Origin: Bacteroidaceae bacterium
GTDB lineage: Bacteria > Bacteroidota > Bacteroidia > Bacteroidales > Bacteroidaceae
Assembly (NCBI GenBank): GCA_024401225.1
Contig: JAKSLM010000026.1
Span: forward strand, 1 to 36,242
Length of the DNA stretch: 36,242 bases
Reading direction: 5' to 3'
Shown: one piece after another, positions 7,191-36,242 of the stretch
Layout of the letters: each line of letters begins with the position of its first letter
Numbering within the stretch: the first letter of the stretch is position 1
Notes under the pieces: generated by a model
Told to the model about the DNA's origin: nothing
Database searches by the model: none
The model's input: the letters and a program-made list of their open reading frames with translations, nothing else
Translations under genes and position numbers: made by a program

Positions 7191-8207
7191 CTAAAACTTA
7201 GCCCTATACTTCTCCTCGTCCTCATCATCAAGCATCGAGAGGTAGGAGTTGTAACGCGACTCGGAGATGTCGTGACGCTCCAAGGCCTCAAGCACCGCAC
7301 AATGTGGTTCGTGGGTGTGCGTGCAGTTGTTGAAGCGGCAGTCGTGCGAGAAGTGGAATATCTCCCGGAAATAGTGTCCCACCTCTTCCTTCTTCATCTC
7401 AAACGTGCCAAATCCCTTGATGCCCGGAGTGTCTATCAGGCCGCCGTTTTCCCATTGAGGTGTTCCATCAGGGGCGTATGAAGTAGGGTACATCTCCGAG
7501 AATGTGGTCGTATGCTTACCCGTGTTGTAGGCATCCGAAATCTCCGATGTGCGCAGCTCCAATCCAGGAAACAGCGTATTGATGAGTGTCGATTTTCCCA
7601 CTCCGCTATTACCACTCAGGCATACTATCTTACCTTCCAAGTCCCGGCGCAGAGCCTCAACACCTTCGCCAGTCTTAGCCGAAATCCTGCGGCAAGTATA
7701 ACCGATGTTCTCGTACAGATTGATCACGCTATCAAGGTACTCCTGCCAGTCCACTTCACTTTCATCGGAACTGTCGTTCTCTTTCCTCACCAAGTCCACC
7801 TTGTTGAACACCAGCATCACCGGCACATTGTATGCCTCAGCGGATGCAAGAAAGCGGTCGATGAATGTCAGCGAGGTCTCAGGCTGAGTCACCGTGACAA
7901 TAAGCAGACACAGGTCCACATTGGCAGCAATGATGTGCGACTGCTTTGAAAGGTTGGTCGACTTGCGGATGATGTAGTTCTTGCGATCCTCCAACTGAGT
8001 GATAAGTCCTTGATGAGCCTGCTCGATGTCAGCATCGGTCGTGTCCTGAGGCACAAACTCCACCCTGTCGCCTATCGCCACCGGATTGGTGGTGCGAATG
8101 CCCTTGATGCGGAATTTGCCCTTGACCTTGCAGTCGTATATCTCTTCCGTGCCGTCAGTCTTTACCGTGTAGCTGTAGCCTGTGTTTCTTATTACGAGTC
8201 CTTTCAA
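7191..8207 (-). CDS. rsgA: Ribosome small-subunit GTPase RsgA
   Basis: A 338-residue circularly permuted GTPase that acts in 30S subunit maturation. In order: an OB-fold ([25 protein letters not shown]), the permuted G domain with NKVD (G4) before the P-loop [24 protein letters not shown] (G3), and a C-terminal zinc site [14 protein letters not shown]. The start is TTG: an in-frame TAA lies 21 nt upstream (six codons between) with no ATG or GTG, and the protein begins MKGLVI as RsgA does in related species. Intergenic spacing suggests co-transcription with DUF4954 upstream and pyrH downstream. Confidence 0.95.
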
Positions 8208-33463: not shown

Positions 33464-33875
33464 TTATTTCTTCTTAGCCTTCTTCGCCTTTGCATTGTAA
33501 GTTAAACTACTGCTCATACGGAAATACTTGCCCAAGGCACGGTCGTAAGCTACTCTTGCATTCCAATTCTGACGGTCATCCACATTGACCTTGGTAGAAG
33601 TAAAACTCCTTCATCTTCAGTTCCTCGTAACCGAAGTAGTTGATGGTCATGTTCACACGGCACATGAAATTACCAGTATCGATAGTTATGATTCCGCATG
33701 AGTCTGTGGTCATGTCATACATATACCAACTATTGCCTTCAACCCGAGTTACTTGCACCTGAGCACCTTCAAGAGGTTCGTTGCTTTCGGCATCGACTAC
33801 TCGTCCTGTGACCACGTCTGCGGACATAATTAGGGCTTGCAGGCATAGGAATGCCAACATACAAATTCGTTTCAT
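33464..33875 (-). pseudogene. Exported carboxypeptidase-regulatory-like protein, frameshifted
   Basis: The intact part (33576-33875, 99 codons) encodes a signal peptide (MKRICMLAFLCLQALIMSAD) and a carboxypeptidase-regulatory-like beta-sandwich (VVTGRVVDAESNEPLEGAQVQV, ITIDTGNF). The frame then leaves the coding path after KMKEF and stops. Removing one base of the A4 run at 33602-33605 (T4 on the coding strand) restores a continuous frame: KMKEF-TSTKVNVDDRQNWNARVAYD, ending in a lysine-rich tail (NAKAKKAKKK) at 33464, 136 residues in total. Explanations are a real null mutation, phase variation by slippage, or a sequencing error. It follows the lipocalin-like gene by 32 nt and is followed by a terminator. 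Confidence 0.75.
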
Positions 33876-33907: not shown

Positions 33908-34417
33908 TTACTTCTTAGGTTTGCTAAGGATGAATTTATTCGTGAGAGTCTGGATATTCTTCGGATCATTCTGGCGCTTGCACTTGTCCACTACATAATC
34001 CACAAGCTCAGCAGGCATGTTTGTCACCTTGCGCCACTTGTCGTGACGGTTGTTCCATTGGCCTTCGAAGTGAGTCTTGTCGAGCATGATGACCGTACCA
34101 TTGCGACCGCACTCGGTGTATTTTCCACCCTTATATGTATATGTGCCGTACTCGTGAGGGAGAATCATAGTCTCCGTTCCATCGACTCGTGCCACTTCGG
34201 CACAGGCATATTCGCCATTCGCGCGAAACACCTTTATCTGATTGTAATCTTCACCTATATAATTGTCCTTCTTACCTTCAAACTTCATTGACTCCAGTAT
34301 CCATACGCCAATGAGGTCCTTGTCGGTAGTCTTGGCTTTCTGTGCCATTACGCTTGATGAGATAAACATCGCAAACAACATCATTGCGAGTCGTGCTACA
34401 GTTCTGTTCTGTTTCAT
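33908..34417 (-). CDS. Secreted lipocalin-like protein
   Basis: A 169-residue exported protein. The signal peptide (ARLAMMLFAMFISSSVMAQ, cleavage near residue 25) is followed by a beta-rich domain beginning DLIGVWILESMKF and including IKVFRANGEY, YGTYTYKGGKYTECG and TVIMLDKTHFEGQW, then a helical C-terminal part (MPAELVDYVVDKCKRQND). It resembles Bacteroidetes lipocalin-like/DUF4488-type proteins; ligand unknown. Its N-terminal 65 residues align by eye with the sensor domain of the regulator encoded directly upstream (D.. GVW.LE ... VF....Y). A strong promoter and two 20-bp direct repeats precede it. Confidence 0.75.
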   Translation of the reverse strand: MKQNRTVARLAMMLFAMFISSSVMAQKAKTTDKDLIGVWILESMKFEGKKDNYIGEDYNQIKVFRANGEYACAEVARVDGTETMILPHEYGTYTYKGGKYTECGRNGTVIMLDKTHFEGQWNNRHDKWRKVTNMPAELVDYVVDKCKRQNDPKNIQTLTNKFILSKPKK

Positions 34418-34463: not shown

Positions 34464-34495
34464 CAAAGATAGATGTTACATGGGAGGTAACCAAA
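34464..34495 (-). promoter_or_regulatory. Promoter of the lipocalin-like gene
   Basis: On the minus strand the -33 box TTTG (complement of 34492-34495) and the -7 box TATCTTTG (complement of 34464-34471) are separated by 20 nt. The ATG is 46 nt downstream of the -7 box. Confidence 0.8.
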
Positions 34496-34500
34496 GATTT

Positions 34501-34562
34501 TTGTTTGCAAATTGTTCACATTTTTGCAAACCACCCAAAACATTGTTTGCAAATTGTTCACA
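34501..34562 (-). promoter_or_regulatory. Direct-repeat operator candidate
   Basis: Two identical 20-bp repeats, TTGTTTGCAAATTGTTCACA on the plus strand, lie at 34501-34520 and 34543-34562, 42 bp apart (four helical turns). Each contains the palindrome TTTGCAAA, and a third TTTGCAAA sits between them at 34523-34530. The block is directly upstream of the -33 box of the lipocalin-like gene and just after the stop codon of the HTH regulator gene, a position typical for activator sites. Confidence 0.7.
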
Positions 34563-34579
34563 AATCGGCCTTAACTCAC

Positions 34580-35587
34580 TTATAATGAAAGGATAAACTC
34601 ATCCCACTCTTTTGCACCGCCTTTATCATGAAAAACCTTGCCATAAAGGCGGCTTCTCATGGTGCTTATGGCACTTGTGCTCTTGTTCAGGGTGTTTGCA
34701 ATGTCCGTTGTTGATACCCTCATCTTGATGAGAAGGCATGTTTGCATCTCCAATTGCGACATCGGGAAGAGGCTGAAGAGGTGATTGGTGAAACCTGGGT
34801 AGGCGCTGTTCACCTGACGTTCTATCTCTTCCCAGTCAGCCTTCTTAAACTGTTCGCCATTGCTGATTCGCTTTCGGCTGGAGAGGTAGAATTCGGAGTT
34901 GAGGAACTCATCCTCCACAGTCATCAAGGCTTCCCGAACCACCTTAGGGCGTTCTTCTATTTCCTTTTGGATCTGCTTAAACTGCTGTTCGATGCGTGCC
35001 TTTTCGCGGAACACATTGCGGGTATGATAAATAAACAAGGCAAATGCAAGCACTATGCACAGAATGGCTACCACAAGGTTCTGCCTATCGCTCTCCAACG
35101 AACGCTCCCTTTCCGATATCACATAAGTGGTCTTGTCCTCATCCCACGCTTCCTTATTCTTTTCTACGATGCTAAGCACATCACCCACATTTGGATTCTT
35201 GCTTCCATCCATCTTATGCCACTCGTACGTTCTGCCCACATCCTCTATATTGATTACCGAGTCATTAACCACGGAAAACGCGTGCCGTTTTCCGTCTTCA
35301 AAGTACAGCCATTCGCCTCCACCCTTGCCGATGAGCTTATACCTGCCGCTGTATGTTGGTTCAAATTCGAACCTGCCAGGCTCCGAATACTTACGGCCTA
35401 CATAATATGTACTGTCAGCAAACACCTGCAACACCCTATTGTGTTCATCATAAACGTAGTCGTTCCCATCAGAGATGTGAATACATTCCAACGTCCACAC
35501 ACCGTGGATGTCAAATTCTGTATCATCCTTTCCCTTGCAGGCAATGATGGTGAGGATGACTATTAAGATGCTTGAAAGATTCTTCAT
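34580..35587 (-). CDS. Membrane-anchored one-component regulator (lipocalin-like sensor, LuxR-like HTH)
   Basis: A 335-residue protein in an unusual order. Residues 1-17 form a lipoprotein-type signal (LTIIAC, Cys17). Residues 24-125 form a beta-rich lipocalin-like domain (DIHGVWTLECIHI, VLQVFADSTYYVGRKY, GRYKLIGKGGGEWLYFEDG). After a charged linker a transmembrane helix spans about 169-188 (LVVAILCIVLAFALFIYHT), a coiled coil about 192-215, and the C-terminal DNA-binding domain about 250-335, with the HTH MSQLEMQTCLLIKMRVSTTDIANTLNKSTSAISTMRSRLYGKVF. Bacteroidetes have related TPR-TM-HTH regulators; I have not seen this sensor described. Topology predicts a periplasmic sensor and cytoplasmic HTH. 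It is upstream of, and co-directional with, a secreted paralog of its sensor. Confidence 0.8.
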   Translation of the reverse strand: MKNLSSILIVILTIIACKGKDDTEFDIHGVWTLECIHISDGNDYVYDEHNRVLQVFADSTYYVGRKYSEPGRFEFEPTYSGRYKLIGKGGGEWLYFEDGKRHAFSVVNDSVINIEDVGRTYEWHKMDGSKNPNVGDVLSIVEKNKEAWDEDKTTYVISERERSLESDRQNLVVAILCIVLAFALFIYHTRNVFREKARIEQQFKQIQKEIEERPKVVREALMTVEDEFLNSEFYLSSRKRISNGEQFKKADWEEIERQVNSAYPGFTNHLFSLFPMSQLEMQTCLLIKMRVSTTDIANTLNKSTSAISTMRSRLYGKVFHDKGGAKEWDEFILSL

Positions 35588-35873: not shown

Positions 35874-36071
35874 CTAATACATGAATCCAAAGATCCATAG
35901 AGGAATCTTGTTTCCCATTCCAACTTCCGTGTTATCAGCAACCACATAACTGCCATTCATGTCCTTTATTTGTTTGTAGCTTTTCTTTTTCCCTCCTATC
36001 TCAAAGAGGTATTTGCCATCCACCAGACAATCGCCAGTTTCAGGGATACATATTGTGTGTGAGTTGGTGAT
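35874..36071 (-). pseudogene. C-terminal remnant of an AAA-type ATPase gene
   Basis: The minus strand has about 65 open codons without a start, ending ...KYLFEIGGKKKSYKQIKD and then NKIPLWIFGFMY-stop. I recognise this as the typical C-terminus of Bacteroidetes AAA/DUF4143-type ATP-binding proteins, which end in IPLW-FG-Y. An in-frame TAA precedes it and no ATP-binding part is present. Directly upstream is an intact-looking leader with a TATATTTG box (complement of 36080-36087) and an ATG (36049-36051) now out of frame. The simplest reading is an internal deletion joining the 5' end to the 3' end of the gene. Confidence 0.6.
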
Positions 36072-36079
36072 TTATGTTG

Positions 36080-36141
36080 CAAATATAGCAATTATTTACT
36101 TTACAAAGTGAATTTTCTGCGATTATTTCACTTTACAAAGT
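36080..36141 (-). promoter_or_regulatory. Promoter and paired palindromes of the ATPase remnant
   Basis: The minus strand has TATATTTG (36080-36087). Upstream are two copies of ACTTTACAAAGT (plus strand, 36098-36109 and 36130-36141), 32 bp apart, each inside a longer shared context (ATTATTT before, A/G-rich after). They look like paired operator sites. No gene is seen from 36142 to the window end. Confidence 0.55.
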
Positions 36142-36242
36142 AAGATTCGCTTACATGTGTGGATTATAGGGCATGAAACATCAATAAATAAAAATAGATA
36201 AAAAGGTAATTGGATTAATAGAGAAAAATAGTAACCCTTGCC

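Follow-up and report, generated by a model that had tools for sequence, protein, structure and literature searches.

A 335-residue protein encoded on a 36,242-nucleotide stretch of DNA from a Bacteroidaceae bacterium (contig JAKSLM010000026.1; the whole stretch is referred to below as the window) is probably a one-component transmembrane activator, in which a lipocalin-like sensor would direct a LuxR-like helix-turn-helix (HTH) domain onto 11-bp direct repeats and switch on the adjacent gene for a secreted lipocalin-like protein. The architecture of the protein, its conservation, the neighbouring gene, the repeats and the fixed position of the repeats can all be seen in the sequences themselves.

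Domain architecture and topology of the regulator

The regulator gene (34580..35587) is an intact open frame of 335 codons. A preliminary description of the window had given these coordinates, which held with one correction: the gene runs on the minus strand, from 35587 to 34580. In 35 of the 45 genomes of the genus there is a relative that spans 313 or more of the 335 residues, which excludes a chance frame.

The protein begins with a signal peptide (35537..35587, minus strand) that ends, as had been described, in a lipobox-like I-I-A-C with Cys17; among 31 aligned homologues, a relaxed lipobox is present in 20 and a strict one in 12. It is followed by a predicted periplasmic sensor domain (residues 18-128; 35204..35536, minus strand), which has no Pfam match of its own and is lipocalin-like by profile comparison. 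The previously proposed transmembrane helix (residues 169-188; 35024..35083, minus strand), assigned here from hydrophobicity and a positive-inside count, has an equivalent in all 31 aligned homologues, each with a 19-residue hydrophobic segment at the corresponding place in a count confined to the surroundings of this position. The C-terminal side of the helix is the more basic by K+R count in 29 of the 31, which favours a cytoplasmic C-terminus.

The remainder of the chain is a conserved, presumably cytoplasmic C-terminal module (34583..34924, minus strand), in which the HTH would occupy about residues 275-318 (34634-34765). In the alignment of 31 relatives, from which loci L035 and L069-L076 were left out, conservation is highest over the C-terminal 114 residues, where 33 positions are invariant or nearly so and the mean column identity is 67% versus 46% in the sensor. 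A domain search of the regulator protein for a kinase or receiver domain matched none. The predicted layout of a signal with lipobox-like Cys17, an extracytoplasmic sensor, a transmembrane helix and a conserved C-terminal module is confirmed at the level of sequence; the earlier interpretation of this domain order as that of a one-component regulator is upheld, and is strengthened by the DNA repeats described below.

The probable double anchor among paralogues

The combination of a lipid and a transmembrane anchor had been considered unusual for a transcription factor, a view that did not survive comparison with the rest of the genome. Further proteins encoded there have a similar transmembrane and C-terminal end, and all seven paralogues that were read (L002-L008, 451-587 aa) combine a signal ending in cysteine, lipoprotein-like by eye, with N-terminal parts other than the regulator's sensor and with the same C-terminal module, so that a lipid anchor together with a transmembrane helix looks like a habit of the protein class. 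A Pfam scan of four of them gave TPR repeats and a sub-threshold DUF6377 match for L002, sub-threshold TPR and GerE matches for L007, a sub-threshold DUF6377 match for L004 and none of these for L003.

The tree of the 31 homologues divides, with support 100/99, into 20 members with the relaxed lipobox and 11 without it. To judge from this sister clade of 11 aligned members, the lipobox is dispensable. The 20 lipobox members are accompanied by a lipocalin-like gene, and the other 11 by a thioredoxin-type gene in ten cases and by another kind in one; as lipobox and neighbour type both follow the two clades, they may reflect a single event. In another genus, locus L100 has a lipobox-like signal together with a thioredoxin-type neighbour.

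Profile matches of the sensor and the putative HTH

The sensor domain appears lipocalin-like by its profile similarity to the secreted neighbour family. In a single hhalign comparison, the sensor profile matched the profile of that family with a probability of 97% (E 6e-11, 103 columns), and some pairs of individual sensors and neighbours reached blastp E-values as low as 5e-13. The window's own sensor and its own neighbour, compared as two proteins alone, gave an E-value of just 0.13. The cut-off of Lipocalin_4 (PF13648) was not reached by the sensor, with one of the 31 members matching at E 0.021 and the window's sensor unmatched.

An HTH in the C-terminal module is suggested by matches that are weak but recurrent, falling on the same region in many members. 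BT3442_fam matches there in 27 of the 31 homologues, HTH_38 in 17 (best E 0.0066) and the UvrY/GacA HTH region in nine (best E 9e-4), all of them below the curated cut-offs. The LuxR/GerE HTH (PF00196) was matched, again below its cut-off, by three paralogues from the same genome, the window protein not being among the matches. DUF6377 (PF19904) matched the window protein over the transmembrane region at 14.5 versus a cut-off of 36.7 bits and gave a weak match in 11 of the 31 homologues. When the whole protein, its sensor, its HTH module and the neighbour were each compared with solved structures, no match was better than E 0.1.

Genes next to the regulator

The likely target of the regulator is a gene on the same strand (33908..34417, minus strand) for a predicted secreted lipocalin-like protein of 169 aa, homologous to the sensor at the profile level. 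Neither this gene nor the repeats in front of it figured in the preliminary description. The protein passes Lipocalin_4 (24.1 versus a cut-off of 22.4 bits), a family matched by only five of 21 lipocalin-like neighbours. In the alignment of these neighbours, the signal ends in Ala-Gln and, by eye, no second hydrophobic helix was seen.

We compared 40 loci (L038-L076 and the window, some of them near-copies). Downstream on the same strand, the conserved gene belongs to the lipocalin-like kind in 23 loci, to the thioredoxin type in 14, as assigned by blastp clustering and confirmed by Pfam for two members, from L057, and to a third kind in two; in L074 a lipocalin-like gene lies upstream of the regulator instead. 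In L061, L067 and L075 the gene calls put a small and perhaps spurious frame (79-103 codons) between the two genes, and in L051 and L038 the regulator, lipocalin and thioredoxin-type genes stand in a row.

Farther along in the window, a 99-aa stub (33576..33875, minus strand) is akin to the N-terminus of ~900-aa proteins that are encoded after the lipocalin gene in L040 and L041. The ~900-aa protein of L040 has an outer-membrane barrel match, and the stub is apparently a truncated remnant of such a protein. On the other side of the regulator, at about 35,875-36,060 on the minus strand, there is what looks by eye like the end of a small-protein gene, and a similar small frame seems to lie downstream of paralogue L004.

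Direct repeats and promoter in the window

Between the regulator and its same-strand neighbour we found 11-bp direct repeats of the form TGNNAAC-N4-TGNNAAC. The same 18-mer, TGTGAACAATTTGCAAAC, with half-sites TGTGAAC-N4-TGCAAAC, makes up both putative operator pair 1 (34545..34562, minus strand) and putative operator pair 2 (34503..34520, minus strand), the latter being separated by 42 bp from pair 1 and ending 8 bp short of the -33 box of a predicted promoter. This promoter (34464..34494, minus strand), with a -33 TTGG at 34491-34494 and a -7 TATCTTTG at 34464-34471, is of the Bacteroidota type. With up to two mismatches allowed, the 18-mer had no further match in the window, and none in 100 shuffles.

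Terminator prediction in the window gave none, and no unusual fold was found at the repeats (z -0.34). In L057, a locus of the thioredoxin-type clade, pair 1 (about 7505-7540) comprises a strong hairpin (z -5.0) and a T run after the regulator, and clade relatives look alike; this makes pair 1 ambiguous in that clade, where one sequence may serve as both terminator and binding site. A sigma-70-like match is present on the plus strand of the window at 34557-34586 (0.8 expected).

Within the 655 bases available upstream of the window regulator, no autoregulatory sites were seen. Two near-palindromic copies of ACTTTGTAAAGT, unlike the regulator's repeats, were noticed by eye upstream of it at about 36,095-36,150, with a TATATTTG box after them at 36080-36087. 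An interspersed repeat around GGGCATGAAATATCAATAAATAAAAATA, also recognised by eye, occurs at about 35,815 and 36,180 in the window, at about 4740 in L122 and in the downstream flank of L006; it seems recurrent in this genome, near contig ends among other places.

Recurrence of the repeats across loci

The 40 loci gave 36 spacer regions (four gave none), from which we dropped the near-copies L053, L058, L059 and L069 and the very short L055 and L065. Direct repeats with a step of 11 occur in 28 of the resulting 30 regulator-to-next-gene regions, versus 2.5 on average and 9 at most in 200 dinucleotide shuffles, which ignore the kinship of the related species remaining among the 30. Other repeat steps are near chance, with smaller peaks at 22 (10/30) and 23 (7/30).

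A promoter match was present in 22 of 32 regions, and among the ten without one, the start of the next gene had been called too far upstream in four. When the 22 regions were aligned on the promoter, the half-sites at -26 and -15 from TTGG agreed in at least five of seven letters in 20, the two that failed this fixed-place test being L051 (2 letters) and L067 (4 letters). Among control promoters in the same contigs, 11 of 40 carried pairs; ten of these promoters, missed by the gene calls, were reassigned to the system itself after the result was seen, which leaves one of 30 (L056).

The arrangement extends to other genera. Among 13 high-scoring loci from eight of them (L087, L088, L090-L100), 12 carry an 11-bp pair in the fixed position ahead of the promoter, and L091 has pairs but no promoter match; the neighbours in these loci are lipocalin-like in six, thioredoxin-type in four and of no recognised kind in the other three. 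One more locus of another genus, L165, has a pair, no promoter match and no recognised neighbour. Sites also precede the regulator's own gene in three loci of the genus, and upstream promoters with pairs are found in L088, L098 and L099 as well.

Beside relatives without the lipocalin-like sensor, step-11 repeats were present in 10 of 27 flanks (17 loci), with a mean of 0.9 and a maximum of 3 in 100 shuffles; L137 and L106 had been brought in by repeat-pattern searches and are hence biased, and without them the count is 8 of 25 flanks. In the paralogue flanks, steps 18 and 19 also stand out, with counts of 5 and 4 where the shuffles reach at most 4, and the best repeat window in L155, L152 and L160 is not a convincing operator. 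Half-sites of paralogues vary by gene, for instance CGTGAAT in L005 and TGTGAAC in L137. Such variation, observed in a minority of flanks, is the pattern expected from a regulator family with diverging specificities. In L138, L141 and L145, which belong to another branch of the regulator class, the half-sites are TGTGAAC/TGTAAAC and the target seems to be a DUF4419 protein, confirmed by Pfam for L138 only.

Genome-wide searches with the repeat pattern

Searched through the 45 genomes of the genus, the strict pattern TTTGCAAACNNTTTGCAAAC was found at 15 places (16 hits, one place being seen on both strands), while its reversed control gave none. Fourteen of the places lie directly after a lipocalin-type regulator, and the remaining one directly follows a frame at a contig edge that belongs to a different protein of the regulator class; 12 of the 15 belong to the thioredoxin-type clade.

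The pattern combining a pair with a promoter identified 24 places in 19 of the 45 genomes, again with none in the control. Nine of them are directly after a regulator of the class (six of lipocalin type, three of other type) and three directly before a lipocalin-type regulator. Five precede genes for proteins of 486-487 aa, among which that of L131 is confirmed as thioredoxin-fold; one precedes a DUF4369 gene, one a Porph_ging (GLPGLI) gene, and among the other five are contig ends and genes that lack a clear name. Similar sites are thus also present before envelope genes remote from the regulator.

A narrower pattern was found at 14 places in 12 of 301 genomes sampled from the family. Each of these 12 genomes also has a match to the regulator, as do 114 of the 301 in all, and 10 of the 14 places are within about 1.4 kb of such a match. 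This pattern misses most of the regulator-bearing genomes (12 of 114 found), the genome of the window included among the misses.

In that genome, the looser pattern TGNRAACNNNNTGCAAAC gave five matches and its control none: two in the window, two at the end of contig C103 and one inside a coding frame on C66. The C103 matches (L122, 4578-4637) form a second double operator pair with the same sequence and spacing as in the window. The promoter-like stretch next to them, in which TATGG replaces TTGG, points off the end of the contig, and its target gene is missing from the assembly. Upstream of the pair there is an 882-aa gene as well as a Porph_ging (GLPGLI) gene.

Distribution of the family

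Within its own genus, the regulator has a match at E 1e-20 or better in 38 of the 45 genomes, and the same threshold is reached by the regulator model in 114 of the 301 genomes of the family sample. About 70 of the 301 match at 1.8e-70 or better, the threshold that we used for the lipocalin type, with a few members cut by contig ends. In the class sample, a match at 1e-50 was obtained in only two of 395 genomes, both of the regulator's own family. A scan of genome contigs returned just two loci, from a Bacteroidaceae bacterium (horse faeces) and an uncultured Paraprevotella.

Proposed mechanism

We propose that the lipocalin-like N-terminal domain lies outside the inner membrane, where it would be held by the transmembrane helix and, probably, by a lipid on Cys17 as well. 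There it would sense the envelope, the likeliest signals being the state of the envelope or a small hydrophobic ligand, the latter suggested by the fold class and the case of VtrC. The signal would travel through the transmembrane helix and a coiled coil to the cytoplasmic part, bringing two or more LuxR-like HTH domains onto the 11-bp direct repeats abutting the -33 box. The adjacent gene would be switched on, its product being the secreted lipocalin-like relative of the sensor; in relatives, the genes switched on would further include some for thioredoxin-fold proteins, others related to the outer membrane and, in some cases, that of the regulator. We infer both that the regulator binds DNA and that it activates rather than represses, and the location of the sites upstream of the -33 box suits an activator.

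A wider proposal seems to us possible but less likely than not. The class of lipid- and transmembrane-anchored Bacteroidota proteins, which has largely escaped counting and includes some members with TPR repeats, might as a whole be direct activators that read 11-bp repeats placed against the -33 box, every gene having beside it the half-site particular to its protein. Within the lipocalin branch, the sensor and the related protein made from the activated gene might share a hydrophobic ligand of the envelope, for instance a bile acid or fatty acid. The protein produced would then act back on its own control by sharing this ligand or passing it on.

Compatible with the activator reading, and possible though on the whole rather unlikely, is an arrangement in which the secreted lipocalin-like neighbour binds the sensor and forms part of the receptor, as VtrC does for VtrA. 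The neighbour is homologous to the sensor and lipocalin-like in 24 of the 40 loci (23 downstream and one upstream), and lipocalin-like partners of such regulators are noted in the accessible part of PMC10269533; yet in the sister clade the gene beside the regulator is of thioredoxin type or another kind, and the lipocalin-like neighbour itself has a cleavable-type signal and no transmembrane helix was seen in it.

The same sites and the same neighbour would also serve a repressor, which would occupy the repeats and block the neighbour's promoter until the signal releases it. The three genus loci with sites before the regulator's own gene resemble simple autorepression, but the pair, on the upstream side of the -33 box, stops 8 bp short of it and leaves the promoter uncovered (20/22), and we consider repression improbable. 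We give a similarly small chance to regulated proteolysis, by which an inactive membrane-held precursor would be cut in or near the transmembrane helix, freeing the coiled-coil-HTH part into the cytoplasm. The single transmembrane helix and the separable, highly conserved cytoplasmic part would fit such a release, as would open frames of 229-242 aa that match the C-terminal part only (G116, G201, G263); known membrane regulators, however, act from the membrane according to the accessible part of PMC10269533. That the repeats are unrelated to the regulator, for example another regulator's sites or the remains of a terminator such as the hairpin and T run of pair 1 in L057 might indicate, is very improbable, since the sites track the regulator class (15/15 strict places, 12/12 genomes), half-sites differ beside some paralogues and no terminator is predicted in the window.

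Relation to known systems

Several transmembrane transcription regulators of the ToxR, TcpP and VtrA type have an associated protein. A lipocalin-like domain is present in many of these partners, and in VtrC it is important for the binding of bile (Demey et al. 2023, PMC10269533, in its accessible part). The same part of that source describes the Bacteroidia as rich in membrane-held regulators. The window regulator resembles this type in having a putative DNA-binding domain, a transmembrane helix and an extracytoplasmic part in one protein, and differs from it by a LuxR-like HTH, a lipocalin-like sensor of its own, a probable lipid anchor, a soluble secreted neighbour and the 11-bp repeats. 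ToxR has a winged HTH. Because the HTH of the regulator passes no Pfam cut-off, a census built on such models may miss it. With the VtrA/VtrC co-component system, the window shares an adjacent gene for a lipocalin-like protein. Partners of the VtrC type are membrane-anchored, whereas no such anchor was found in the neighbours of the present system.

In the accessible part of PMC3878776, SusR of Bacteroides thetaiotaomicron is described as a membrane regulator that senses the periplasm, and direct repeats spaced by 67 or 77 bp are predicted as its sites. By description, the window regulator would have in common with it a membrane location, a periplasmic sensor, a C-terminal HTH, a role as activator and direct-repeat sites; the window differs in its 11-bp pairs with 42 bp between them. 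The hybrid two-component systems of Bacteroides, with direct-repeat sites on average 21 bp apart (PMC3878776, same part), likewise unite a membrane sensor and a DNA-binding domain in one chain and read direct repeats, whereas the window regulator has no matched kinase or receiver domain. The DUF6377/BT3442 family of Bacteroidota, of which BT_3442 is called a TPR-containing protein in the accessible part of PMC2954219, is linked to the regulator by the BT3442_fam match at the HTH region and has a larger N-terminal part in place of the lipocalin-like sensor.

Our literature search found no description of the family, an absence that is not proven, as most subscription journals lie outside its coverage, and the accessible part of PMC10434189 holds nothing on this regulator system. 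Among the membrane-held regulators of Bacteroidia in the papers covered, predicted DNA sites were found only for SusR-like proteins and hybrid two-component systems (PMC3878776). As a predicted binding element, the DNA repeat beside the regulator is newly found. For a family represented in about 70 of 301 sampled genomes, sites, promoter geometry and likely targets can be read straight from the sequence, and this may perhaps be extended to the paralogues. A lipocalin-like sensor that is coupled with a secreted protein related to it would be a fresh form of the VtrA/VtrC idea.
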